Assembly: GCA_903899985.1 (NCBI GenBank)
Contig: CAIULL010000139.1
Location: 1 to 64,000, forward strand
Length of the DNA stretch: 64,000 nucleotides
Source: an uncultured Schlesneria sp.
GTDB lineage: Bacteria > Planctomycetota > Planctomycetia > Planctomycetales > Planctomycetaceae
Reading direction: 5' to 3'
The notes beneath the pieces were generated by a model, which searched no databases, had not been told where the DNA came from, and saw only the letters and a program-made list of their open reading frames with translations. The stretch's first letter is position 1. Every line of letters starts with the position of its first letter. This document shows positions 28,411-43,755 of the stretch, piece by piece. The position numbers were made by a program, and so were the translations under genes.

Positions 28411-29150
28411 CACGCTTTCCGCCCAATTGAAAGCAAATTTCGACCTGACTTAAGACTTCTATCGTCATTCATCTAACGTCGAAAGTCCATTCCTGTAATT
28501 TTAGGAAATTCCAGCAACGATTCACGTCACCCCAAAGTCACAATCAGCGCTCCAGCGTGTTGAGGATGTTTCGAGAACGACTCGATCGTTTCCAGGATCT
28601 AAAATCAAGATCGCGAGTCGTTGCGCAACATAGACTGCGTTTGAGCAACGATGGCAATTTATAAGGCTCTATGATCCACGAATTTAAGCTACAATGGAGA
28701 TGCTTGCGCAACGATGAATGCGCGACTTTCAGAGCGTTTGAGCAATGATTACCAATTCTACCGGGAAATTCGAAACATCGTCGTTTGCAGTCGAATCTTC
28801 GAAGCCCAACAAAACATCGATAAACGTCGTCGTCGAATTTGCAGACGAAGTTGGCCAATCCGATCGTTTTTGATTCGTTCGCCAGATGACGTAAAGTCAT
28901 TCTGAAAATGGAATAACGGACACCATCAAAGGAAACTCCTCCTCGATGTGGAAGTAACAAGTTTTCCCAACCGTTCCCGTCAAGTACGCGAGTTGAATGC
29001 CTTTCTTATCGGTCACATAAGTCCGATCTGTCGCATACTTCCCATTCGCCCCATTGAAAACAGATTTGGTGTCAAAGTTCGAGCAAGTTCGCGCGACTTC
29101 GACCATTCCCCATATTTTATAGGCTTTTGAACATTTTTCCGTCGCGCCAA

Positions 29151-29230
29151 AGTTCACCCGAGTTCACCCGAGTTCACCCGAGTTCACCCGAGTTCACCCG
29201 AGTTCACCTGAGTTCACCCGAGTTCACCTG
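29151..29230. repeat. Eight tandem copies of a 10-bp unit
   Basis: AGTTCACCCG is repeated eight times head to tail without spacers. Units six and eight have T in place of the second last C (AGTTCACCTG), and a degenerate ninth unit begins at 29231. The period is close to one helical turn, so each unit shows the same DNA face. There are no spacers of CRISPR type. It lies about 745 bp upstream of the giant gene. Confidence 0.95.
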
Positions 29231-29243
29231 AGTTTGATCAGGT

Positions 29244-29451
29244 TCGTTCGCTGTGCGAGATTCATTCGACCTCGCACAGCAAACGACCGTACCGACATGG
29301 CAAACAACGAACCGCTATACCCCCGTCGCGTTAAAAAAACGACGGGGGTGAACCGTGTTGAATTTATTCCAAGATGCCAAAGATCAAAAATCGCGATTGC
29401 GCATCGCAAAACCAGAACGGGTCCCGCTTTTCGATGCCAATACTGGTTTTG
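29244..29451. other. Three consecutive hairpins after the 10-bp array
   Basis: First stem: 16-bp arms 29244-29259 and 29271-29286 with one mismatch and an 11-nt loop (core GCTGTGCGAG/CTCGCACAGC). Second stem: perfect 10-bp arms 29319-29328 and 29340-29349 (ACCCCCGTCG/CGACGGGGGT), again with an 11-nt loop ending in seven A. Third stem: 9-bp arms 29407-29415 and 29443-29451 (CAAAACCAG/CTGGTTTTG). Together with the tandem array they make a dense structured block that no protein gene explains. Confidence 0.75.
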
Positions 29452-29974
29452 TTTCCAGACGAGCCTCTTTTATGAAACCAACGGATGCGTTGACCGGAAT
29501 CGGCCAAACAATTTAAAACACATATTTCTTTTTAATATTTACAAGATTTGTTATCGCATGTCAACCATGCGCAATGCCAGGCTTCTTAACGTTTGGAAGC
29601 TGCTTATGAAACTAAGCCAGCCCACTGGTTCCGAAGCTGGCAGCGTCGTCCACGTCACTCCTGCTGCCGGCATCCGCAAGAGGAACGCTCAGAGTCAAAT
29701 TGACCGCAACCTTGCGAGTCCAAATGATTTTGCGATCCACGTCCTAAGGATCAAGAAGTGAACTTCAGAACACTTAATTGACGTCCAGAGGGAAACGTAG
29801 TTTAATTCGACACTTCATACTTAGCCAGCACAATATTCCCGAGTACAACACGTCCTGATCGATGTGCTGCAGATTCTATTTTTCGGTACCGATTCGTTCA
29901 CAATCAATTCGTTCGCTCTCAATTCCGGCGCAGGCCTTCGCTGACGATTACCGACAAATTCGGAAACACGAAAA

Positions 29975-32900
29975 ATGATACTAGGTCATTGGCTTGCCCG
30001 TTTGAAATCCATCCTGTTGAGCGGAAGCAGATCTGGCGGGATCTTAGGCACGAGCCGAACGCCAATTTCGCAGCGAAGGCGAAGTCAGAATCGCCGATCA
30101 TCAAGGATAGCGCTGATCCAGCCGCTGGAAGATCGGGTGCTCCTGTCCACCTTGGGTACGACGTCGTTAGTCGAAGCCCCAACGGCAGGCAGTGATTCCG
30201 ATATTGTCATCGCCTCCGGAGCCTGGACAGCTTCAACCAACTCTTCGTGGATCACCCTGAACACCACGAGCGGGACGGGAAATGGCTCAGTCAATTTCAG
30301 CTTCACCGCAGACACAGGAGCGACTCGCAGCGACACGGTGACGATCGCCGGGCAGACGCTGACAGTGACCCAAGCCGGAACGGGCTACGTCGTGGCAGGC
30401 CCGACGAATCTCGTCACCTCGGGATTGTACCTTCCTAAAAGCGTGGCGGTGGACAGTTCGGGAAACGTCTACATTGCCAGTTCGGTTATCCAGGAATGGA
30501 ACGCGGCGACGGGAGCGCTCACAACACTCGTCAATACGGGATTGAATAATCCTTCGGGCGTGGCGGTGGATAGTTCGGGAAACGTCTACTTTACTGACAG
30601 CGGTAACAACGCGATTAAGGAATGGCACGCCGCCACGGGAACGGTCACAACGCTCGTCTCGACCGGATTGAAAGGTCCCTGGGGCGTGGCGGTGGACGGT
30701 TCAGGGAACGTCTACTTTGCCGATACGACTAACAATGCCATTGACGAATGGAAGCCGACGACAGGATTGGTCACGACGCTCGTCTCGACAGGGTTATACG
30801 CACCCACTGGCGTGGCGGTGGACGTTGCGGGGAACGTCTACTTCGACGATGCGGGTCACAATGCGGTTAAGGAATGGAGTGCTGCAACAAGTACGGTCAC
30901 AACGCTGATCTCTTCCAATTTGAACTCCCCCGAAGGGGTGGCGGTAGACGGTTCGGGAAACGTTTACATTGCCGACACGAATGACCGCGCGATCAGGGAA
31001 TGGAACGTGGCAACCGGAGTGATGACGACACTCATCTCTTCCATCCCCTATGGTTTGAATTATCCCGAAGGCGTGGCATTGGACGGTGCAGGGAACGTCT
31101 ACATCGCAGACACGGACAATAGCCGTATCACGGAATTGCCTCGGTCCTACGTGAACACGACCGCGAAGTCGGAAACAAACGGCGCCGGTACCGATCAACT
31201 GAGCGTCGTGGTTCCGTCGACCGCCAACCTGACCGGGTTGTTTGCTCCGACCAGCGATCAAAGCTGGTTGACAATCGGCTCGGTGGCTAACGGAGTTGTG
31301 AACTTCAATTTCAACGCGAATCCGTCAGGCAGCGTTGCGCGTACCGCAAATATCAGGTTGCAGAACCAGCTCATTGCAGTGACACAGGCAGCGGGGCCTG
31401 CAACGCTGGGCACAACTTCGATCGTGGAAGGACCCTCCGGCGGCAGCGATTCGGATTTCATCATATACGGAGGTGCCTGGACCGCGTCGACAACGGCCTC
31501 GTGGATTACGCTCAACACCACAAGCGGGACGGGAAGTGGTTCAGTCAATTTCAGTTTCGCAGCAAATACAGGCGCGACGCGGGTTGGTACGGTGACGATC
31601 GCCGGGCAAACGTTGACAGTCACACAGGCCGGCGCGGGCTACGTTACCGCAGGTCCGACAACACTCGTCACAGCGGGATTGAACGGTCCCGCTGGCGTGG
31701 CAGTGGACAGCGCGGGAAACATCTACTTCGCTGATACGGGTAATAACGCCATCAAGGAATGGCACGCTGCGACGGCGACGACCACAACGCTCGTCTCTGC
31801 GGGATTAAAAGGTCCAAATGGCGTGGCGGTGGACGGTTCCGGAAACGTCTTCATCGCCGACTCTGGCAACAATGCGATCAAGGAATGGCACTTATCGACC
31901 GGGACGGTCACAACGATCGACTCTGCAGGATCGCCTGCCCTGGCGGTGGATGGTTTCGGGAACGTTTACTATTACGTCAGCAACGGGATTAATGAATGGA
32001 TCGCAGCGACGGGGACGGTCAGAACACTGATTTTCACCTACGGATATAGCGTTCCCCAGGGTTTGGCAGTGGACGGTTTGGGGAACGGCTACTTTGTCGA
32101 TACGAATAGCAAAGCCATTGAGGAATGGAATGCGACAACATTTAGAATCACAACGCTTGGCACTGTTGCGGGATTGAATGGTCCTCAGGAGGTGGCGATC
32201 GACGGTTCGGGCAACTTCTACATCGCCGATCAGAACAACAACGCGATTAAAGAACGGCAAGCCACGACCGGAACAGTCACATCACTCATTCCAACAGGTT
32301 TGAGCAATCCCGCGGGGGTAGCAGTTGACGCCTCGGGGAACGTTTACATCGCCGATACCGGTAACAATCAAATCAAGGAGTTGCCTCGAGCGTACGTGAA
32401 TACGGCTCCCGTCACAGAAACAAGCGCCGCTGGCACCGATCAACTGAGCGTCGTGGTTCCGTCGACCGCCAGCCTGACGGGGGTGTTTGCTCCGACCAGC
32501 GACCAAAGCTGGTTGACCTTCGGCTCTGTGGCCGGCGGCGTTGTCAATTTCAACTTCAGCGCGAATGCGACGGGTGCTTCGAGAACGGCGAATGTGACCC
32601 TGCTGGGCCAGACAATCGCGGTGACACAGACAACCTTACCCCCTGCAGCGCTAGGGACGACATCGCTGGTAGAAGCCCCCTCCGCAGGCAGCGATTCGGA
32701 TCTTGTCATCACTTCGGGAGCATGGACCGCCTCGACAACCACCCCGTGGATCACGCTGAACACGGCGAGCGGGACGGGAAATGGAGCACTCAATTTCAGC
32801 TTCGCCGCAAATCCGGGGGCAACGCGAAGTGGCACGGTGAGGATCTCAGGAAATACGTTGACGGTCACGCAGGCCGGAGTGGGTTACGTCGCGGCGGGCC

Positions 32901-35900
32901 CAACGACTCTTGTCTCTGCGGCCCTGGCTTCTCCCTCTGACGTGGCAGTGGACGGTGCGGGGAACGTCTTCATTGCTGATCACAACAATAACGCAATTAA
33001 GGAATGGCATGTTGCGACAGGGTCGGTCACAACGCTCGTCTCGTCAGGCTTGAATTTTCCCACGGGCGTGGCCTTGGATAGTTACGGGAACGTCTACATC
33101 GCCGATACGGCGAACAACGCGATTAAGGAATTAAGCGCCGCGACCGGAACGGTGACGACACTCGTTTCGACCGGATTGAGCGCTCCTGAACGTGTGGCGG
33201 TAGACGGTTCGGGAAACATCTACATCGCCGATACGGGCGATAAAGCGATTAAGGAATGGAACGCCGCGACGGGGCTTGTAACACTTGTCTCAACCGGATT
33301 GAGCAGTCCACGCGGGATCGCCTTGGATAGCTCGGGGAACGTCTACTTCTCTGATACCGGTAATAATGCGATCAAAGAATGGAACGCCATTTCGAAGACG
33401 GTCACAACGCTCGTTTCGACCGGATTGAGCGCTCCCATCGGCATTTCCGTGGATGGGTCAGGTAACGTCTATATTGCCGACTCGAATAACAGAGCCATCA
33501 AGGAATGGAACGCGACGAATTTGTCAGTCACAACTCTGAATACGGGAGCACCGATTGTTCCGGCTGGCGTCACTGTTTCCAGTGCGGGGAACGTCTACAT
33601 TGCCGACAGAGGTATCAATTCCGTTAAAGAATTGGTGACGTCGTCCGGGGCGGTAAATACGCTGGTGATATCGACATTGGCGTTTCCTAATGGTGCGGCG
33701 GTGGACGCTTCGGGGAACGTTTACCTTGCAGATATCGATAACAACGCGATTAAGGAGTGGCACGCATCGACGGGTACCGTGACCACGATCATCTCGACGG
33801 GATTGAACGCCCCCACGGGCGTGGCGGTAGACAGCTCAGGAAACCTCGACATTGCTGATAGTGGCAGCGGCATTCAGGAATGGCTGGTGGCAAATGGGAC
33901 GTTCGTCCCTTCGGGCTTGGTCTTCACAACTCCGAAAGGGGTGGCGGTGGACAGTTCGGGGAACGTCTACATCGCCGATACGATTCACAGCTCGATTTAT
34001 GAATGGTCCCCAACGGCTAAGTTTACCGCTCAACTTGGTGTGACGGGCTTGAAAAATCCCGATGGCGTCGCAGTCGACAGTGCGGGGAACGTCTATGTCG
34101 CCGATACGGGGAACAACGCCATCAAGGAATGGAACCCGTCAACGGGTGTGACCACAACGCTTGTCTCATCGGGATTGAGTGCTCCCTTTGGTTTGGCGGT
34201 GGATGGCTCGGGGAATGTCTACATCGCCGACACCGGTAACAACGCGATTGAGGAATGGAACGCGGCGACGGGGACGGTCACGGCACTCCTCTCGTCGGGA
34301 TTGGGTGGCCCCCATGGCGTGGCACTGGACAGCGCGGGGAACGTCTACATCTCCAATACAAATAAGAGTGCTCTTCAGGAATTGCCCCGGGCGTATGTGA
34401 ACACGGCCACGAAGTCGGAAACAAGCGGGGCTGGGACCGATCAACTGGGGGTCGCTCTTTCATCGACCGCCAATCTGACCGGGGTACTGGCTCCGACCAG
34501 TGATCAAAGCTGGTTGACGATTGGATCGGTGACCAACGGCGGGGTGAACTTCAGCTTCAGCTCGAATCCGGGCGTTACGCGAACTGCCAATATTTCGCTG
34601 CTGGGCCAGACGGTCTCGGTGACACAGGCGGGCTCAACGCTTGCAACACTTGGGACAACATCGTTGGTGGAAGGCCCCTCGGCGGGAAGTGATTCGGTCA
34701 CTGTTTTATCAGCCGCGTCCTGGACAGCCTCGACGACCCCGCCATGGATCGCGCTGAACACCACAAGCGGGACAGGAAATGGATCTGTCAATTTCAGCTT
34801 CGCGGCTAATGCAGGGACGACGCGGACGGGCACGGTAACAATCGCAGGGCAGACGCTGACGGTCACTCAGGCAGCAGCGGGCTACGTCTCGGCAGGTCTG
34901 ACGACGCTTGCCGCCACGGGATTGGCAACTCCCGAAGGCCTGGCAGTGGACGGCGCAGGAAACGTCTATATCGCGGAGACTGGTTCCAACAGGATTCTCG
35001 AATTTCACGTGGCAACCGGGACGGTCACACCGCTCATCACTGGCGGATTTAATTCACCCACAGGCGTCGCAGTGGACAGCGCAGGAAACGTCTATGTCTG
35101 CGATAACAGCACGTTACAAGAATGGCACGTCGCAACCGGGACGGTCACGACACTCGTCTCGACCGGATTGGGCCAGCCCTCCTCGGTGGCAGTAGACAGT
35201 TCGGGGAACGTCTACATTGCCGATACGAATAACAACGCGATTAAAGAATGGCAGGCATCGACGGGGACGGTCATCACGCTCGTCGCTTCTGGATTGAATA
35301 GTCCCTCAGGCTTGGCGGTGGACAGCTTCGGGAACATCTACATCGCTGATTATTTCAACAAGGCGATTAAGGAATGGCAGCCCGCAACGTCGACGCTCAC
35401 AACACTCGTCTCTTCGGGATTGATCGCTCCCGCAACCGTGGCTGTGGACGGTTCGGGAAACGTCTACATCAGCGATAATAACGTCCCGAAGAGCACGGTG
35501 AAGGAATGGCAGCCCGCGACGTCGACGCTCACAACGCTCGTCTCTGCGGGATTAAACGGTCCCGGGGGCGTGGCGGTGGACGGTGCAGGGAACGTCTTCA
35601 TCGCTGATGAGATTAGCGGCGCTTTCAAGGAATTGCCGCGAGAGTATTTGAACACCGCCCCCAAGTCGGAAAAGGGTGGGGCCGGTACCGATCAACTGAG
35701 TGTCGTCGTTCCTTCGACCGCCACCCTGATTGGGGCGCTTGCTCCGACCAGCGATCAAAGCTGGTTGACGATCGGCACGGTGGCTAATGGAATCGTGAAC
35801 TTCAGCTTCACGACAAATGCTGGCGCCGCACGCACAGCGCACATTACACTGCTGGGCCAGACAATCGCGGTGACACAGTCGAGCTTACCCCCAGCAACGC

Positions 35901-38900
35901 TGGGGACGACGTCGTTGGTGGAAGCCCCCGCCGCAGGGAGCGATTCGGATATGGTCGAATTCGGTGGGCCGTGGACCGCCTCGACCAACGCCTCGTGGAT
36001 CACGGTAAACACGACAAGCGGGACAGGAAATGGTGCGGTCAATTTCAGCTTCGCGGCAAATCCGGGCGCAACGCGGACTGGCACAGTGACGATCGCCGGG
36101 CAGACGCTGACAGTCACACAAGCCGGAGCGGGCTACGTCGCGGCGACTCCGACGACTCTTGTCCCTGCGGTCCTGGCTGATCCGTCTGGCGTGGCCGTTG
36201 ACAGTTCCGGAAATGTCTACTTCGCTGATTTTTATCACCAGTCGATTAAGGAATGGCACGCCGCGACGGCGACAGTGACAACACTCGTCTCGACCGGTCT
36301 GAAAAATCCGCAAGGGGTGGCGGTGGACAGTTCGGGAAATGTCTACATCGCTGATACGGGTCACAAAGCGATCAAGGAATGGAACGCAGCGACGGGAACC
36401 GTCACGACGCTCGTCTCCACCGGATTGAATCTACCCAATGGTGTCGCGGTGGACACTGCGGGCAACGTCTACATTGCTGATACGTTCAACAACGCAATTA
36501 AGGTCTGGAGTCCGGGGACGGGGACCGTCACAACGCTCGTCTCGACCGGATTAAGTAATCCGCATAGTGTGGCTGTGGACGCTGCGGGCAACGTCTACAT
36601 CGCCGATACAGGTAACAATGCGATTGAAGAATGGCATACCGGTACGGGGACGGTCACGACGCTCGTGGCGACCGGATTGAACAATCCCGACGGCGTGGCA
36701 GTGGACAGTTCGGCGAACGTCTACATCGCTGATACCGGTAACAACGCAATCAAGGAATGGCACGTAGCGACGGGGACGGTCTCGACCGTCGTCACGATTC
36801 CCGTTCCTGCGGGTTTGGGAGGCCCCAATGGCTTGGCACTGGATGCTTCAGGGAACGTCTACATCTCCAATCCCGCGACCAATATGATCACGGAATGGCA
36901 GAAGTCTTCTGGAACGGTCAAAACAATCGTTTCTTCGGTCTTGAACTTTCCCAATGGCGTGGCAACCGACACGTCGGGGAACGTCTACATCGCCGATACA
37001 AATAACAACGCAATCAAGGAATGGAACGCCGCGACCGGCGCGGTCACAACGCTCGTCTCGACCGGATTGAATCTCCCCGATGGCGTCGCCGTGGACGGTT
37101 CTGGCAATGTCTACATCGCCGATACGAATAACAACGCGATTAAGGAATGGCACACCGGGTCGGGAACAGTCACAACTCTCGTCTCGACGGGACTCAGTCA
37201 GCCTCATGGCGTGGCAGTGGACAGCGCTGGAAACGTTTACATCGCCGATTATGGCAATAATGCAATCGAAGAATGGACCGTGGCGACGGGGACCGTCACA
37301 ACGCTTGTCGCGACCGGATTGTCTCATCCCGGTGGCGTGGCACTGGACGGCGCGGGGAACGTCTATATCGCCGATTCGAATCACAACGCGATCGAGGAAT
37401 GGAACGCCGCGACATTGACCGTCACAACGCTCGTTTCGACGGGATTGCTCACTCCTTATGGACTGGCAGTGGACGGTTCGGGGAACGTCTATATTGCCGA
37501 CACGAATAACAACGCGATTAAGGAATGGAACGCCGCAACGGGAACCGTGACCACGCTCGTCACAGCGGGATTGCAAGCTCCCTATGGCGTGGCAGTAGAC
37601 GGTTCGGGCAACGTCTTCATTGCCGATACAGTCAACAGCGATTTAATCGAACTGCCTCGGGCGTATGTGAACACCACTCCCCTGACGGAAACGAGCGCTG
37701 CGGGTTCCGATCAATTGAGTGTCGTCATTCCGTCAACTGCGAACCTGACGGGAGTATTTGCTCCGACCAGTGATCAAAGCTGGTTGACCTTCGGTTCGGT
37801 GACTAACGGTGTTGTGAACTTCAACTTTAGCGCGAATCCGATTGGCAGCGCTCAACGGACAGCTCATATTACACTGCTGGGCCAGACAATCGCGGTGACA
37901 CAGCCCGCCGTGCCTGTCGCGCTGGGAACAACATCATTGGTGGAAGGCCCTTCCGCAGGCGGCGATTCGGATAACGTCGTAACGACAGGGGCGTGGACAG
38001 CCTCGACCACGACCCCGTGGATCACGCTGAACACTACCAGCGGAACGGGTAACGGCTCAGTCAATTTCAGCTTCTCGTCGGATGCAGGAGTCACACGAAC
38101 GGGGACGGTGACGATCGCCGGACAGACGCTGACGGTCACGCAGGCGGGAGCGGGATACGTCGCGGCAGGATCGGCGACTCTGTTTACGGGATTGAGCGGT
38201 CCCTACGGTGTGGCGGCAGACGCTTCCGGGAACGTGTATGTCTCTGATTCGGGTCACAACGCGATTAAGGAATGGCAGGTATCGACGGGGACGGTCAAAA
38301 CTCTCGTCTCGACAGGATTGAATAATCCCTTTGAACTGGCGGTTGACAGTTCGGGGAACGTCTATATTGCTGACCAGTCCAACAATGCCATTAAAGAATG
38401 GAACGCCGCGACGGGGACGGTCACGACCCTCGTTTCCACAGGATTGAGCGGTCCCGATGGCGTCGCAGTGGACTCCTTGGGGAACGTCTACATCGCCGAT
38501 TCGCTTAACGGCGCACTGAAGGAATGGCACGTCGCGACTCAGACGGTCACTACGCTCGCCGCAGGATTACATCCCGTGGGAGTGGCGGTGGACAGTTTCG
38601 GGAACGTCTACATCGCTGACGGTGGTAACAACGTGGTGAAGGAATGGCACGTCGCGACAGGAACGGTCACGACGCTCGTCACCGGATTGAACGATCCGTT
38701 CGGCGTGGCGGTGGACGGTTCGGGCAACGTCTACATCGCTGATACGAATAACGTGCTGGTGAAGGAATGGCAGGCCGCGACGGGAACGGTCATCACGCTT
38801 CCCTTTGCAGGATTGACCGGTCCCACCAACGTGGCGGTCGACGGTTCGGGCAATGTCTACACCTCCGACTGGGGCGACAACGCGATCCTGGAATTGCCTC

Positions 38901-41900
38901 GGGCCTATGTGAACACGACTCCCCTGACGGAAACGAAGGGGGCTGGTTCAGATCAACTGAGCGTTGTCGTTCCATCAACGGCCAACTTGACGGGGGCGTT
39001 TAGTCCGACCAGTGATCAATCCTGGTTGACAATTGGCTCGGTGACCAACGGAGTTGTGAACTTCAACTTCAGTGCGAATCCGGGTATTTCGCGAACCGCC
39101 AATATTACGGTGCTCGGTCAGACGATCCCGGTGACACAAGCGGGCTCAAAGCTGGCGATTCTCGGGACGACATCATTAGTGGAAGGCCCTGCTGCCGGCA
39201 GCGATTCGGATGCGTTCGTCGCGTCAGGGGCCTGGACCGCCTCAACCACAGCCCCATGGATCACACTGAACACCACCAGCGGGACGGGGAATGGCTCAGT
39301 CAATTTCAGCTTCTCGGCGGATGCAGGAGCGACACGAACGGGGACAGTGACGATCGCCGGACAGACGCTGACGGTCACGCAGGCGGGAGCGGGCTACGTC
39401 GCGGCAGGTTCGGCGGCTGTGATTACGGGATTGAGCGGTCCCTATGGCGTCGCGGCGGACGTTTCCGGGAACGTCTATGCCTCTGATTCGGGTCACAATG
39501 CGATTAAGGAATGGCAGGCATCGACAGGGACGGTCAAAACACTCGTCTCGTCAGGATTGAATAATCCCTTTGAACTGGCCGTCGACAATTCAGGGAACGT
39601 CTACATTGCCGACCAGTCCAACAATGCGATTAAAGAATGGAACGCCGCAACGGGGACGGTCACGACGCTGGTCTCCACTGGATTGAACTATCCAGATGGC
39701 GTCGCTGTGGACGGTTCGGGGAACGTCTTCATCGCCGATTCCGGCAACGGTGCACTTAAGGAATGGCACGTCTCGACAGGGACCGTCACCACACTCGCTG
39801 TAGGATTACATCCTGTCGGAGTGGCGGTAGACAGTTTCGGGAACGTCTACATCGCCGACGGTGGCAATAACGTGGTGAAGGAATGGAATGCCGCGACGAA
39901 GACAGTCACGACGCTCGTCACCGGATTGAACAATCCATGGGGCGTGGCGGTGGACGGTTCGGGGAACCTCTACATCGCCGATGGCGGTAACGTGTTGGTT
40001 AAGGAATGGCAGGCCGCGACGGGAACGGTCATCACACTCCCGTTTGCAGGATTGGCCGGTCCCTCGAACGTGGCGGTCGACAGTTCGGGCAATGTCTATA
40101 CCTCCGATTGGGGCAACAACGCGATCGAGGAATTGCCTCGGGCCTATGTGAACACGACTCCCGTAACGGAAGCAAGCGGGGCTGGTACGGATCAACTGAG
40201 CGTTGTCGTTCCATCAACGGCCCTCCTGACGGGGGCGTTTACTCCCACCAGTGACCAAAGCTGGTTGACCATCGGCTCGGTGGCAAACGGAGTTGTGAAC
40301 TTCAACTTTAGCGTGAATCCGACAAGCGGGGCTGCGCGTACGGCGCATATTAATTTGCTGGGCCAGATAATCACCGTGACCCAGACATCAACACCGATCG
40401 TGACAACACCCACCATCGCCGCTATTGCCAACACATCAGTAGTACTGGGCGGTAATGTTACCAATGACGGCGGACAGGGGATCACAGAACGAGGCGTGCT
40501 TTATGCGCTGACGAGCGTCAATCCGAATCCGACACTCGGTGGTACGGGCGTCGTAAAAGTGACCGCAACTGGCACAACGGGTGCCTTCACCGTGACGGCA
40601 TCGACACTGACCCAGGGAGCCGTCTACTCCTTCGTCGCTTATGCCACCAATAGTAACGGTACCACCTACTCGCCGTTGGGTGCCACGTTTGCTCCAGGGA
40701 CTGTCAATGTCACCGGTGTGTACGATCCCTCGTCCAATCCTATTGCAGCGGGAGCGACATTAACGGCTTCGCCAAATAGTTTGTCAGCGTCGTTCTCCGA
40801 AAACATGAACTCCGTCACGGGCGGGGCCAATAGTGTCACGAACCCAGCGAACTGGCTGCTGTTCCGGTATGGCGTTGATTTCTCGAACCTGATCACAGGG
40901 ATCACATTCACTCAGACCCCAACCAGCCTGCAATACCTTGCGACCCTTTCGTTTGCTACCCCATTGAATCAAGGGGGGTATCAACTGATCGCCCGCCAGA
41001 CGATGCAGGACATCACCGGTCGATCGTTGAGTGGTTCTTCTGGAACCTCGGCTAACGATTTCCGCCTGAATTTCTATGTCGCTCAAAAGGTCGGCGTGAC
41101 AACTGACGTTGCCCCATACCTCTACAACATCGAACCATCCATACTGAATGTCACCGCAACACAAACGGTACCGATTTCGACGTCGCTTTATGTCTATGAC
41201 GCCGACAGCAACAACTGGACTTCTGCCACCGTGCAGATTGGTATTAACTATCAGAGCGGCGAAGACGTCCTCGGCTTTACGAATACCGCCACGCCAAATA
41301 TCACCGCATCCTGGAACGCCGCGACGGGAACATTGACGCTTAGCGGGACCGATACGGTTTCCAATTACCGGACCGCCCTGCATAACGTGACATACACGGA
41401 CACAAGCGCCACACCCAACACGGCGTTGACTCGGGCGATCTATTTCCAGGCCAACGACGGCATGTTACTCAGTAACGTACAGACCCGTGATGTGACGGTG
41501 ATGGCGTCCAGCGTACCCGCCGTCCTGTCGGGAGTCAGCGGCACGGGAACATACTTCCAGGGCTATCCGGCGATTGCCCTGGCGCAGTACCTGGTGATTA
41601 CTGATCCGAACGTGGTCAATCTCTCCAGCGCAACCGTCACCTTTACAAATTGGCAGGGAGAAGACCGGCTCGACTTCAATAACATCTTCGCTGATCAGCA
41701 CACATTCACCCAGGACCTGGTCGCTCACACGGCGACGTTTACGATTATGGGATCGGACCTGGTTGACCATTACCAGACCCTGTTGCGATCGGTGATTTAC
41801 TGGGATGTCAGCGGAGCCCCCACGACGTCGGCTCGCGTTGCCAGTTTCTCGGTCACCGACGGATTTTCGACCAGCAATATTGTCACCCGCAATACGCTTG

Positions 41901-42733
41901 TGTCGGCCGTCAATCAAGCACCAACGCTGACATCAATCGAATCAACGCCGCTCTTCTGCAAGGCAAATGATCCAGCCTATCCCGCTCAGCCGATCTCAAA
42001 CACGCTTCTGGTTGGCGACCCTGACAGCAACAACCTGACCAAGGCGACGGTGCAGATCACATCAGGTTACGAGAACGATGCAAACGGCACAGACGTATTA
42101 GCCTTCACAAATCAACTCGGAATCACTGGCTCATTTAACGCCGCGACAGGAACACTGACCCTGACAGGGACAAGTTCGGTCAGCAATTACCGGACGGCGC
42201 TCCGATCGGTCACATTCGGGACGTCTGGAGCAGCCCCCAGCACGGCGACGCGAACCCTGACAATCTACGCCACCGACGACTACTCGCCGACTCCGGCCAC
42301 CAGCCTGTCGGCGACTCGGACCGTCACGATCCAGACGACAAATCTGCCTCCCGCCTTGTCCAATATTCCGAACGCACCACTCGCGTACGTTCGAAACGCG
42401 ACTGCAACGGCGATCGCACCGGGCGCCGTGATCTACGATCCCGACAGCATCAACATGGCCAGTGCCACGATTCAGATCACCGGCAACTATCAAACGGGTC
42501 TGGATGTTCTGGCAGCAACGGTTGTTTCGGGAATCACCCAGAGCTTCAACGCCACGACAGGAACGTTGACGTTATCGGGCATTTCCTCACTGGCCAATTA
42601 CCAGACCGTGCTTCAATCAGTCACGTTCTTTACAACGAGCACCGCGAACACGTTAACGCGTTCGATCAGCCTGACACTGAACGACGGTTTGGCGAATAGT
42701 TCAACGGTCTCACGTGGCGTGACGTTGAGTTGA
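29975..42733 (+). CDS. Giant secreted BACON/NHL-propeller protein with LEPR-like N-terminus
   Basis: A 4252-residue protein in one uninterrupted frame. Residues 1-58 are a basic, hydrophobic leader ending in LEDRVLLS (51-58), the planctomycete LEPR-XLL-type motif found at the start of giant surface proteins. Residues about 60-3470 are seven modules. Each module has a BACON domain (LGTTSLVEGPSAGSDSD, then W-T-A-S...WITLNTTSGTGNG, ending LTVTQAG) and NHL-type repeats of about 44 residues (GVAVDGSGNVYIADTGNNAI-KEW). Each closes with a second BACON-like sandwich (TDQLSVVVPSTANLTG, SDQSWLTIGS, IAVTQ). Residues about 3470-3700 hold a fibronectin/Ig-like stretch. Residues about 3715-4252 are four cadherin-like repeats. 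No C-terminal anchor is visible. ATG 29975 is the only sensible start. Probably exported to the cell surface as a binding or adhesion protein (inference). Confidence 0.9.
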   Translation: MILGHWLARLKSILLSGSRSGGILGTSRTPISQRRRSQNRRSSRIALIQPLEDRVLLSTLGTTSLVEAPTAGSDSDIVIASGAWTASTNSSWITLNTTSGTGNGSVNFSFTADTGATRSDTVTIAGQTLTVTQAGTGYVVAGPTNLVTSGLYLPKSVAVDSSGNVYIASSVIQEWNAATGALTTLVNTGLNNPSGVAVDSSGNVYFTDSGNNAIKEWHAATGTVTTLVSTGLKGPWGVAVDGSGNVYFADTTNNAIDEWKPTTGLVTTLVSTGLYAPTGVAVDVAGNVYFDDAGHNAVKEWSAATSTVTTLISSNLNSPEGVAVDGSGNVYIADTNDRAIREWNVATGVMTTLISSIPYGLNYPEGVALDGAGNVYIADTDNSRITELPRSYVNTTAKSETNGAGTDQLSVVVPSTANLTGLFAPTSDQSWLTIGSVANGVVNFNFNANPSGSVARTANIRLQNQLIAVTQAAGPATLGTTSIVEGPSGGSDSDFIIYGGAWTASTTASWITLNTTSGTGSGSVNFSFAANTGATRVGTVTIAGQTLTVTQAGAGYVTAGPTTLVTAGLNGPAGVAVDSAGNIYFADTGNNAIKEWHAATATTTTLVSAGLKGPNGVAVDGSGNVFIADSGNNAIKEWHLSTGTVTTIDSAGSPALAVDGFGNVYYYVSNGINEWIAATGTVRTLIFTYGYSVPQGLAVDGLGNGYFVDTNSKAIEEWNATTFRITTLGTVAGLNGPQEVAIDGSGNFYIADQNNNAIKERQATTGTVTSLIPTGLSNPAGVAVDASGNVYIADTGNNQIKELPRAYVNTAPVTETSAAGTDQLSVVVPSTASLTGVFAPTSDQSWLTFGSVAGGVVNFNFSANATGASRTANVTLLGQTIAVTQTTLPPAALGTTSLVEAPSAGSDSDLVITSGAWTASTTTPWITLNTASGTGNGALNFSFAANPGATRSGTVRISGNTLTVTQAGVGYVAAGPTTLVSAALASPSDVAVDGAGNVFIADHNNNAIKEWHVATGSVTTLVSSGLNFPTGVALDSYGNVYIADTANNAIKELSAATGTVTTLVSTGLSAPERVAVDGSGNIYIADTGDKAIKEWNAATGLVTLVSTGLSSPRGIALDSSGNVYFSDTGNNAIKEWNAISKTVTTLVSTGLSAPIGISVDGSGNVYIADSNNRAIKEWNATNLSVTTLNTGAPIVPAGVTVSSAGNVYIADRGINSVKELVTSSGAVNTLVISTLAFPNGAAVDASGNVYLADIDNNAIKEWHASTGTVTTIISTGLNAPTGVAVDSSGNLDIADSGSGIQEWLVANGTFVPSGLVFTTPKGVAVDSSGNVYIADTIHSSIYEWSPTAKFTAQLGVTGLKNPDGVAVDSAGNVYVADTGNNAIKEWNPSTGVTTTLVSSGLSAPFGLAVDGSGNVYIADTGNNAIEEWNAATGTVTALLSSGLGGPHGVALDSAGNVYISNTNKSALQELPRAYVNTATKSETSGAGTDQLGVALSSTANLTGVLAPTSDQSWLTIGSVTNGGVNFSFSSNPGVTRTANISLLGQTVSVTQAGSTLATLGTTSLVEGPSAGSDSVTVLSAASWTASTTPPWIALNTTSGTGNGSVNFSFAANAGTTRTGTVTIAGQTLTVTQAAAGYVSAGLTTLAATGLATPEGLAVDGAGNVYIAETGSNRILEFHVATGTVTPLITGGFNSPTGVAVDSAGNVYVCDNSTLQEWHVATGTVTTLVSTGLGQPSSVAVDSSGNVYIADTNNNAIKEWQASTGTVITLVASGLNSPSGLAVDSFGNIYIADYFNKAIKEWQPATSTLTTLVSSGLIAPATVAVDGSGNVYISDNNVPKSTVKEWQPATSTLTTLVSAGLNGPGGVAVDGAGNVFIADEISGAFKELPREYLNTAPKSEKGGAGTDQLSVVVPSTATLIGALAPTSDQSWLTIGTVANGIVNFSFTTNAGAARTAHITLLGQTIAVTQSSLPPATLGTTSLVEAPAAGSDSDMVEFGGPWTASTNASWITVNTTSGTGNGAVNFSFAANPGATRTGTVTIAGQTLTVTQAGAGYVAATPTTLVPAVLADPSGVAVDSSGNVYFADFYHQSIKEWHAATATVTTLVSTGLKNPQGVAVDSSGNVYIADTGHKAIKEWNAATGTVTTLVSTGLNLPNGVAVDTAGNVYIADTFNNAIKVWSPGTGTVTTLVSTGLSNPHSVAVDAAGNVYIADTGNNAIEEWHTGTGTVTTLVATGLNNPDGVAVDSSANVYIADTGNNAIKEWHVATGTVSTVVTIPVPAGLGGPNGLALDASGNVYISNPATNMITEWQKSSGTVKTIVSSVLNFPNGVATDTSGNVYIADTNNNAIKEWNAATGAVTTLVSTGLNLPDGVAVDGSGNVYIADTNNNAIKEWHTGSGTVTTLVSTGLSQPHGVAVDSAGNVYIADYGNNAIEEWTVATGTVTTLVATGLSHPGGVALDGAGNVYIADSNHNAIEEWNAATLTVTTLVSTGLLTPYGLAVDGSGNVYIADTNNNAIKEWNAATGTVTTLVTAGLQAPYGVAVDGSGNVFIADTVNSDLIELPRAYVNTTPLTETSAAGSDQLSVVIPSTANLTGVFAPTSDQSWLTFGSVTNGVVNFNFSANPIGSAQRTAHITLLGQTIAVTQPAVPVALGTTSLVEGPSAGGDSDNVVTTGAWTASTTTPWITLNTTSGTGNGSVNFSFSSDAGVTRTGTVTIAGQTLTVTQAGAGYVAAGSATLFTGLSGPYGVAADASGNVYVSDSGHNAIKEWQVSTGTVKTLVSTGLNNPFELAVDSSGNVYIADQSNNAIKEWNAATGTVTTLVSTGLSGPDGVAVDSLGNVYIADSLNGALKEWHVATQTVTTLAAGLHPVGVAVDSFGNVYIADGGNNVVKEWHVATGTVTTLVTGLNDPFGVAVDGSGNVYIADTNNVLVKEWQAATGTVITLPFAGLTGPTNVAVDGSGNVYTSDWGDNAILELPRAYVNTTPLTETKGAGSDQLSVVVPSTANLTGAFSPTSDQSWLTIGSVTNGVVNFNFSANPGISRTANITVLGQTIPVTQAGSKLAILGTTSLVEGPAAGSDSDAFVASGAWTASTTAPWITLNTTSGTGNGSVNFSFSADAGATRTGTVTIAGQTLTVTQAGAGYVAAGSAAVITGLSGPYGVAADVSGNVYASDSGHNAIKEWQASTGTVKTLVSSGLNNPFELAVDNSGNVYIADQSNNAIKEWNAATGTVTTLVSTGLNYPDGVAVDGSGNVFIADSGNGALKEWHVSTGTVTTLAVGLHPVGVAVDSFGNVYIADGGNNVVKEWNAATKTVTTLVTGLNNPWGVAVDGSGNLYIADGGNVLVKEWQAATGTVITLPFAGLAGPSNVAVDSSGNVYTSDWGNNAIEELPRAYVNTTPVTEASGAGTDQLSVVVPSTALLTGAFTPTSDQSWLTIGSVANGVVNFNFSVNPTSGAARTAHINLLGQIITVTQTSTPIVTTPTIAAIANTSVVLGGNVTNDGGQGITERGVLYALTSVNPNPTLGGTGVVKVTATGTTGAFTVTASTLTQGAVYSFVAYATNSNGTTYSPLGATFAPGTVNVTGVYDPSSNPIAAGATLTASPNSLSASFSENMNSVTGGANSVTNPANWLLFRYGVDFSNLITGITFTQTPTSLQYLATLSFATPLNQGGYQLIARQTMQDITGRSLSGSSGTSANDFRLNFYVAQKVGVTTDVAPYLYNIEPSILNVTATQTVPISTSLYVYDADSNNWTSATVQIGINYQSGEDVLGFTNTATPNITASWNAATGTLTLSGTDTVSNYRTALHNVTYTDTSATPNTALTRAIYFQANDGMLLSNVQTRDVTVMASSVPAVLSGVSGTGTYFQGYPAIALAQYLVITDPNVVNLSSATVTFTNWQGEDRLDFNNIFADQHTFTQDLVAHTATFTIMGSDLVDHYQTLLRSVIYWDVSGAPTTSARVASFSVTDGFSTSNIVTRNTLVSAVNQAPTLTSIESTPLFCKANDPAYPAQPISNTLLVGDPDSNNLTKATVQITSGYENDANGTDVLAFTNQLGITGSFNAATGTLTLTGTSSVSNYRTALRSVTFGTSGAAPSTATRTLTIYATDDYSPTPATSLSATRTVTIQTTNLPPALSNIPNAPLAYVRNATATAIAPGAVIYDPDSINMASATIQITGNYQTGLDVLAATVVSGITQSFNATTGTLTLSGISSLANYQTVLQSVTFFTTSTANTLTRSISLTLNDGLANSSTVSRGVTLS
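30152..40389 (+). repeat. Seven BACON-propeller-BACON modules
   Basis: Modules begin at the LGTTS motif at 30152, 31406, 32651, 34649, 35900, 37922 and 39161. Lengths are about 1254, 1245, 1998, 1251, 2022, 1239 and 1229 bp. Counting the GVAVDxxGNVYxAD blades by eye gives 6, 6, 12, 6, 12, 6 and 6 NHL repeats, 54 in total. Modules three and five carry two propellers' worth of blades between one pair of BACON domains. Confidence 0.85.
37922..40389 (+). repeat. Recent tandem duplication: modules six and seven
   Basis: The two modules (37922-39160 and 39161-40389) match blade by blade, including unusual features absent elsewhere. These are the shortened fourth blade 'TLAxGLHPVGVAVDSFGNVY', the 'NNPFELAVDxSGNVYIADQS' blade and the 'PFAGLxGPxNVAVDxSGNVYTSDWG' last blade. 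The DNA of the BACON part is nearly identical. They are the youngest pair in the array. Confidence 0.8.
41117..42733 (+). repeat. Four cadherin-like C-terminal repeats
   Basis: Four units of about 130-140 residues begin near 41117, 41512, 41920 and 42346. Each has a 'YDxDSNNxxSATVQI' strand, a DVLxFTN-type segment, 'FNAATGTLTLxGTxSVSNYR' and a closing 'ALxSVTF' strand with a final domain-end 'TRxVTV'. The second unit is the most divergent. This pattern is common in bacterial surface proteins with calcium-binding cadherin-like domains. Confidence 0.7.
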
Positions 42734-43302: not shown

Positions 43303-43755
43303 ATGTCACAATCATTGGCCAAAAATATGTTGCATCTTGTCTACAGCACCAAACATCGAAATCCGTGGATACCGGCAGAAGTACGGAAACATCTCTATTC
43401 CTACCAATCGGGCATATTTGAAAATTTGGAAAGCCCCGCGCTGATCATCGGCGGGGTGGATGACCATGTTCACGCACTTTTTTCGTTGTCAAAAAACTAT
43501 GCTCTCTCCAAAATCGTTGAAGAGGTGAAAAAAGCAAGTTCCAAATGGATGAAGACGGAAGGGACCCACAACCAGGAATTCTATTGGCAGGGGGGCTACG
43601 CTGCATTTTCTGTCTCTCAATCCAACGTGGAACAAGTTAAGGAATACATCGCGAATCAGGAAGAACATCACCGAACGATGACGTTTCAGGATGAATTACG
43701 ACTTCTATTCAAACGTCACGAAGTCGAATTTGACGAACGATATGTGTGGGATTGA
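43303..43755 (+). CDS. tnpA: IS200/RAYT-type Y1 transposase
   Basis: A 150-residue HUH single-strand transposase of the Y1_Tnp family. The metal-binding HUH motif is His55-Val-His57 in GGVDDHVHALF. The catalytic tyrosine is Tyr115 in VKEYIANQEEHH, preceded by the family's WQGGYAAFSVSQS strand. The frame is intact with a Shine-Dalgarno (AAGGA, 7 nt before ATG 43303), so it may be active. There is no TnpB/accessory gene. It sits between two inverted copies of a palindromic element, the arrangement of REP-associated tyrosine transposases (RAYTs), which act on REP hairpins as single-stranded substrates. Sequence alone does not separate IS200 from RAYT; the flanks argue for the latter. Confidence 0.88.
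   Translation: MSQSLAKNMLHLVYSTKHRNPWIPAEVRKHLYSYQSGIFENLESPALIIGGVDDHVHALFSLSKNYALSKIVEEVKKASSKWMKTEGTHNQEFYWQGGYAAFSVSQSNVEQVKEYIANQEEHHRTMTFQDELRLLFKRHEVEFDERYVWD

Follow-up and report, generated by a model that had tools for sequence, protein, structure and literature searches.

A dispersed family of putative long untranslated RNA genes with a boxA-like leader in Schlesneria

The window, a stretch of 64,000 nucleotides of DNA from an uncultured Schlesneria sp. (Planctomycetota), contains a block of short tandem repeats and inverted repeats that is probably part of a long untranslated RNA gene. This gene would be read from the minus strand, from approximately position 29528 towards 28.4 kb, and would be one of about 57 such units in the genome. 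The block recurred dozens of times in the genome from which the window was taken (G000). In the best reading of the sequence data, the units form a new family of untranslated RNA genes that are long and mosaic in structure, share a common control and have an antitermination mechanism resembling that of rRNA operons. We infer transcription of the units, the existence of an activator and the action of Nus factors from sequence features.

The block and its predicted promoter

A preliminary description, made from the nucleotide sequence only, listed a 10-bp tandem array and three inverted repeats, all of which were recovered as described. In tandem-repeat analysis, the array (29151-29234) had a period of 10, 8.4 copies and a match of 95%; its eight units are in phase, with CCTG in the sixth and eighth and CCCG in the others. 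The 16-nt arms of hairpin 1 (29244-29259 and 29271-29286) are 94% complementary and the 10-nt arms of hairpin 2 (29319-29328 and 29340-29349) are 100% complementary, with a separation of 11 nt in either case, and the 9-nt arms of the third stem (29407-29415 and 29443-29451) are separated by 27 nt. When folding was compared with that of dinucleotide shuffles, none of 200 shuffles was as good as hairpin 1 (z of -7.4 on the minus and -5.3 on the plus strand) or hairpin 2 (z of -4.3 and -4.1) on either strand. The third stem folded at chance level (z of -1.2 and -0.5, matched by 23 and 63 of 200 shuffles, respectively). The initial proposal of three hairpins thus holds for hairpins 1 and 2, which fold far beyond the shuffles, but not for the third stem.

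The block was found to reach beyond the limits originally assigned to it, to 29611 on the right and to approximately 29064 on the left (Table 1). As the preliminary description had stated, no protein gene fits this region: none that was convincing occurred between the starts of an open reading frame with a DUF1501 domain (28413, minus strand) and of a giant open reading frame (29975, plus strand). A minus-strand open reading frame of 86 aa over the left arm (28897-29157; 81 aa queried) gave 59 other matches in the same genome (E ≤ 1, best 1.7e-6). Nearly all of these fell within the first 30-50 residues and 35 of the 59 contained stop codons; because they were short and stop-laden, they were taken to reflect a DNA repeat rather than a protein family, and this candidate protein gene was rejected. 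No Rfam family matched the window at the gathering score, or the region 28450-29970 at E ≤ 1, and at these thresholds rRNA, and with it a reading of the block as an rRNA operon, was absent.

Table 1. Features of the block and of the putative transcription unit in the window.
Feature	Position	Strand	Sequence or evidence
X box, 29 bp, predicted activator-binding site at approximately -54 to -82	29583..29611	minus	plus-strand sequence TTCTTAACGTTTGGAAGCTGCTTATGAAA
Predicted sigma70-type promoter, TTGACA-N17-TAAATA	29536..29564 (29564-29536)	minus	predicted start near 29528
BoxA-like antitermination motif	29369..29387 (29387-29369)	minus	TTGATCTTTGGCATCTTGG; leader motif in 101/165 rows and rRNA-leader match
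Hairpin 2, 10-bp stem, 11-nt loop, member of conserved leader hairpin	29319..29349	minus	covariation, fold, model match
Conserved sequence after hairpin 2	29301..29314	minus	CGGTTCGTTGTTTG; alignment A1
Hairpin 1, 16-nt arms, 11-nt loop	29244..29286	minus	inverted repeat and fold z
10-bp array, right arm of two-armed element	29151..29234		eight GTTCACCYGA units
Conserved element spacer	29107..29150		TTCCCCATATTTTATAGGCTTTTG...
Left arm, three 10-bp units	29077..29106		GTTCGAGCAA GTTCGCGCGA CTTCGACCAT; three left units in 61/72 measured elements
Distal part of putative RNA	28500..29076	minus	GCGCAACGATGG-type words, by eye; other units hold similar words

This array is one arm of a two-armed element with dispersed copies, which is treated below. 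The sequence to the right of this element recurred in 31 loci (30 of 40 fetched loci and the window), several of the ten loci without it being cut by contig ends, and its most conserved piece was TTCTTAACGTTTGGAAGGTGCTCATGAAA. A 26-bp core of this box, searched with up to three mismatches, occurred 33 times in G000, 41 times in G001, 54 times in G004 and 41 times in G005, and was absent from the other 55 of the 59 genomes; a reversed control gave no matches in any genome. Read on the other strand, the box had TTGAC within range after it at 114 loci; the gap between the two was 18 nt at 89 of these, and 77 of the 114 contained TTGACN-17-TAnnnT. The window, whose -10 sequence TAAATA lacks the last T, is not counted among these 77, and 50 of 164 loci had no TTGAC in range. 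The promoter consensus also contained a T-rich stretch immediately before the -35 sequence. At one locus of G001 (L299), X boxes at C217:15289 and C217:15613 share one orientation and are 324 bp apart, perhaps as a doubled promoter.

The leader and its boxA-like motif

At a variable distance after the promoter, GATCTTTGACA...GG and then a hairpin were found in 101 of 165 rows. The remaining 64 rows, some of which were shortened by contig ends, lacked the motif within the up to 1 kb searched. Together with the 50 of 164 loci without TTGAC, this indicated that some family members are degenerate, divergent or cut short. In an alignment of 43 sequences, hairpin 2 had seven consensus pairs, all of which showed double changes. 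Its cells were paired in 88.8% of cases, against 75.6% after shuffling and 18-50% in slid versions of the structure. None of 500 shuffles reached the covariation score and one of 500 reached the number of further pair types, in a test that favors covariation because this alignment also served to derive the structure. Compensatory changes of the kind expected for a structured RNA were thus found, and for hairpin 2 only. G-U pairs (39) outnumbered A-C pairs (9), an asymmetry that fits a minus-strand RNA, and leaders of 91 loci folded with a mean z of -1.77 (57% below -1.5). Covariation, strand asymmetry, promoter and boxA all favor the structured RNA that had been among the initial suggestions.

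The sequence GATCTTTGACA agreed by eye at nine of 11 positions with the gamma-proteobacterial boxA consensus GYTCTTTAANA, as given in the available text of PMC5725501. According to excerpts of two further papers, boxA binds NusB/NusE (PMC4807359) and boxA elements stand before long non-coding RNAs, namely 16S rRNA and some CRISPR arrays (PMC7862264). Since a search of G000 found no 16S rRNA gene, rRNA leaders of relatives were used for comparison. Of the eight relatives searched, G002 and G004 each gave one full-length 16S gene and G015 gave two operons, which made up the four leaders compared; in G007 the matches were partial, and four relatives gave no match. Within a search range of 400 nt before 16S, the best match to a weight matrix derived from the units was at -261 in G004 (one of 1000 shuffles as good), at -233 in G002 (three of 1000) and at -182 in the two G015 operons (0 of 1000). 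As a background, 1.7-3.1% of 1500 random 400-nt stretches, drawn from fetched loci that hold units, scored as high. Judged through these relatives, the motif appears to be one that also occurs in the rRNA leaders of close organisms. The 16S leader of G004, a genome that itself bears units, contained a promoter-like TTGACT-N16-TAGAAT and, after it, a GC-rich inverted repeat and TGATCTTTGAAAACACGG; it shared the boxA core GATCTTTGA with the units.

Leaders of rRNA operons consist of a promoter, a boxA and a stem-loop, and their antitermination involves NusB, NusE, NusA, NusG and SuhB. The units resemble them in their TTGAC-type promoter, the boxA core, a stem-loop beside boxA and a long, in the units putative, untranslated transcript. 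Unlike an rRNA operon, the unit in the window contains no rRNA by Rfam, and the units are dispersed in dozens and carry the 29-bp X box; moreover, boxA precedes the hairpin in the units, whereas in the rrn leader of G004 the GC-rich inverted repeat precedes boxA (by eye). CRISPR arrays with boxA leaders likewise place untranslated repeats after a promoter and a boxA (available text of PMC7862264, citing Stringer et al., 2020). The units lack the identical repeats and unique spacers of such arrays; in the window array, the 10-bp units stand head to tail, with no unique spacers of similar length between them. The large ornate bacterial RNAs GOLLD, ROOL and OLE are likewise long, structured non-coding RNA genes (PMC12286853, in the part available). 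The units differ from them by the absence of an Rfam match, by a mosaic repeat body and by a shared promoter box with 57-83 promoter-box matches per genome.

Reading the units as RNA genes suggests the following mechanism. A protein bound to the 29-bp X box, centered at approximately -68, would aid RNA polymerase at the TTGACA-N17 promoter, with its T-rich stretch upstream of the -35 sequence. The nascent RNA would then expose boxA and a stem-loop, upon which the polymerase would take on a Nus complex as it does at rRNA operons; it is proposed that approximately 1-1.5 kb of untranslated repeats could consequently be read through without a stop by Rho. As a guess, the hairpins and the reiterated 10-nt or longer modules of the RNA body, which vary between units, could offer many sites for binding of one or a few proteins and thus act as a scaffold or sponge. 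The complete proposal, with 57-83 co-regulated long untranslated RNA genes per genome, rRNA-type antitermination and mosaic RNAs acting as multivalent scaffolds or sponges, is put forward tentatively. To our knowledge, few bacterial transcripts other than rRNA, CRISPR arrays and some ornate RNAs are both long and untranslated. If the proposal is correct, each genome would hold dozens of jointly regulated RNA genes with a boxA leader and a repeat body. This would represent a new use of antitermination and one of the rare lncRNA-like gene families of bacteria, and such a set of many co-regulated long non-coding RNAs would be a bacterial system without a known counterpart. According to the accessible portion of PMC5725501, work on boxA itself has centered on rRNA, with a few further targets. 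In the mostly open literature on intergenic repeats, non-coding RNA, antitermination, boxA and large RNAs in Schlesneria and Planctomycetes, judged by titles and the openings of abstracts, no prior description of the family was found.

In the leaders of four loci (L277, L279, L270, and L131), a hairpin-like GGGACAGGCACC...GGAGCCAGTCCCG was observed, in one case as GGGAGAGGCACC. This sequence is a REP-like palindrome that seems to invade units.

Distribution, bodies and possible mobility of the units

Two sequence models were built from members of the genomes G000, G005, G001 and G004 and used to score up to 150 candidates per genome. The promoter-plus-box model gave 57 matches in G000, 68 in G005, 74 in G001 and 83 in G004, five weak matches in G006 and none in the other ten of the 15 genomes of the genus. 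With the boxA-plus-hairpin model, 41, 55, 50 and 62 matches were found in G000, G005, G001 and G004, respectively, and none in the other 11 of the 15; for either model, zero counts denote absence at its sensitivity. The window's own match to the latter model spanned 29300-29403 on the minus strand (75.5 bits).

The bodies of 144 units of at least 700 nt each were mosaics of repeat-word classes. Counted with loose regular expressions and without a chance control, these classes were the 10-bp GAAC type (74 units), TTGGCCAA/TTGCCYAA (52), TTCGTG/CACGAA (50), AAGTTGGC arms (49), TTGCGCAA (21), ATCCGTG/CACGGAT (17) and a GTGCG hairpin (13), with none of them in 15 units. Long tandem arrays in three other units (L185:4685-5620, L187:4675-5587 and L208:5132-5715, with periods of 121, 160 and 141 bp, respectively) hold TTGGCCAA, AAGTTGGCCAACTT or GTTGCCTAA words. 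Tandem periods of 10, 121 and 160 bp are, in contrast to 141, not multiples of three, which points to non-coding sequence. The high variability of the body makes a sequence-specific function doubtful.

The locus in the window has an ortholog in G004 (L025/L220), with neighboring DNA 87-90% identical and an identity of 71% over 28704-29637. The box, TTGAC-N17, boxA and the two stems are retained in this ortholog, and its array is shorter. Box and boxA differed at one of 29 and one of 19 positions, respectively, and in hairpin 1 of L025 a count by eye gave 30 of 32 arm nt and six of 11 loop nt as unchanged. Over 21 ortholog pairs (14 with at least 460 nt of matching flank and seven with only 156-357 nt, one locus being used twice), identity was 87.2% for the box, 75.6% for the -35 and 71.7% for the -10 sequence, 58.8% for the promoter spacer, 59.2% for the leader, 69.3% for the stretch between -35 and box and 70-74% for the outer flank, a comparison that is biased for the box because pairs were chosen with the box present in both members. 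BoxA, which played no part in this choice, was readable in 15 of the 21 pairs, and in five the partner had no boxA in the alignment. Its identity was 64.6%, against 59.6% in the 60 nt before it, 51.8% in the 56 nt after it and 39.9% beyond. These figures indicated that the leader was gained, lost or mis-aligned at some loci.

The main rival explanation is that the units are selfish or neutral dispersed repeats, that is, intergenic sinks of REP/MITE-like families spread by duplication and gene conversion, in which the promoter is that of an old mobile element. This origin, to which a fairly low probability is assigned, would fit the high copy number, the mosaic of seven word classes in the 144 units and the presence of an IS200-like Y1 transposase gene in the window. 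It would also fit several observations on flanks and contig ends: the flanks of the two units that were followed (L217 and L232) lie on different contigs in relatives, the fetched DNA adjoining the L217 flanks in G001 and G005 contained no promoter-box match, and in six of 20 stretches (L186, L188, L191, L194, L197, and L198) a contig ended within 1.2 kb of the box. However, recent near-identical copies, as in MITE or REP families, were not found among 163 distinct units of the 282 model matches, in which the best within-genome match of at least 150 nt, overlaps excluded, was 89.8% over 508 nt. The fixed order and orientation of the modules, the compensatory changes in hairpin 2 and the conservation of the box above that of its flanks at orthologous loci (picked by the box) likewise argue against selfish repeats, as does the absence of the exact box core from viral contigs and of the block, distant matches included, from plasmids.

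The split flanks of the two followed units also point toward a recombination site, which the preliminary description had considered, in a manner that is only suggestive. Units may be break or rearrangement points and, if they do form a family of RNA genes, this family would account for some of the contig breaks in these genomes.

The two-armed element and neighboring genes

The array in the window is the long right arm of an element whose left arm mostly counts three 10-bp units; a conserved spacer separates the arms, and right arms hold two to 12 units. With two consecutive array units as query, 29 overlapping matches on 10 contigs were found in G000 (8.0 Mb, 296 contigs) and none with a reversed control. 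When 40 of the 88 first candidates for a 181-base query (29060-29240) were scored, at least 60 matches had E ≤ 10, and for 57 of these E was below 1e-8. The element was present in five of 59 genomes (G000 and relatives), all of one genus and one of them with a single weak match. A scan of wider genome contigs with two array units yielded six stretches, four of which were in one "uncultured Schlesneria sp." MAG; stretches from Streptomyces and Gordonia lacked the surroundings of the element and were rejected as apparent chance matches. Of 106 element matches, 75 were within 3.5 kb of a promoter-box match, all of them downstream of it and in a single orientation, and the remaining 31 were at loci without such a match. 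Because L199 overlaps L113, two of these 75 pairings, two of the 165 promoter rows and two of the 72 measured elements are re-fetched copies.

In these 72 elements, the distance from the last left to the first right unit was 55/56 bp in 28, 65/66 bp in 36 and different in eight (39, 54, 60, and 85 bp), which were kept in the counts and most of which look like parsing misses. The two spacing classes differ by approximately one helical turn, and this fixed spacing argues for a role of the element at the DNA level as well. The whole element folded with a z of -2.1 on the minus strand (seven of 200 shuffles as good) and -0.3 on the plus strand. By eye, the two arms of a GTTGGCC variant could pair into an RNA stem; the type found in the window showed no such pairing, which was not used.

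The iteron-like protein-binding array proposed initially is supported as anatomy, with a putative binding protein, by the two arms of 10-bp units and by their spacing, which fell into the 55/56 or the 65/66 bp class for 64 of 72 elements. Taken as a complete explanation, in which a protein on the phased arm units of an iteron- or centromere-like array would bridge the spacer and transcription would be secondary, it is judged unlikely. Plasmid partition sites such as parC of R1 have two sets of approximately 10-bp direct repeats around a spacer, and the arms of the element are likewise two such sets of phased direct repeats. The usual three left and two to 12 right units, and the retention of the same core in the GTTGGCC variant (by eye), also agree with protein binding. 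In contrast to parC, the element is dispersed and variable in unit sequence, and the ten window proteins that were scanned included none resembling partition proteins and no par genes. Units of the 10-bp type were moreover found, with the loose pattern, in only 74 of the 144 bodies, and their sequence differs between and within elements, which is unusual for a single binding protein. Finally, DNA binding would leave promoter, boxA and covarying hairpin unexplained. Binding at the arms is nevertheless compatible with the units being either RNA genes or selfish repeats.

The giant open reading frame (29975-42733, plus strand) encodes 4252 aa, with NHL and BACON repeats in the first 1666 aa, and its DNA has a 126-bp periodicity. 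That the block is its regulatory leader or promoter region, as had been suggested, is highly improbable. The X box ends 364 bp before the start of this open reading frame, but the predicted promoter and the RNA strand indicated by the excess of G-U over A-C pairs point away from it. Genes adjoining other units, among the neighbors examined, were of many kinds and occurred in either orientation. Based on open reading frames rather than annotated genes, the first one of at least 220 aa upstream was co-directional at 75 loci and divergent at 75, with none at 15; the first such frame downstream (median distance 1281 nt) was co-directional at 64 and convergent at 47, with none at seven. Such varied neighbors without orientation bias indicated that the family is not linked to the giant gene. 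A link to a downstream gene family was also rejected, since the open reading frames beyond the box included only one similar pair, both from the same locus. On the far side of the giant gene, approximately 14 kb from the block, an open reading frame (43303-43755, plus strand) encodes the IS200-like Y1 transposase (150 aa, PF01797), a possible RAYT.

A neutral minisatellite with chance hairpins, which would agree with the different unit number at the orthologous locus (10 in the window and six in L220 by the loose pattern, only two of the latter being exactly GTTCACCCGA), is very unlikely given the family and receives almost no weight, in view of an architecture shared by dozens of loci across four genomes, the hairpin z-scores and the covariation. 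The lack of conservation that the preliminary description had named as speaking against its interpretation was therefore not observed, although unit number did differ.

At 14 loci (e.g., L313, L226, L285, L271, and L186), which were left out of the ortholog comparison, a short stretch beside the box on its gene side was common within and between genomes; this stretch may correspond to the start of a prepilin-type gene.
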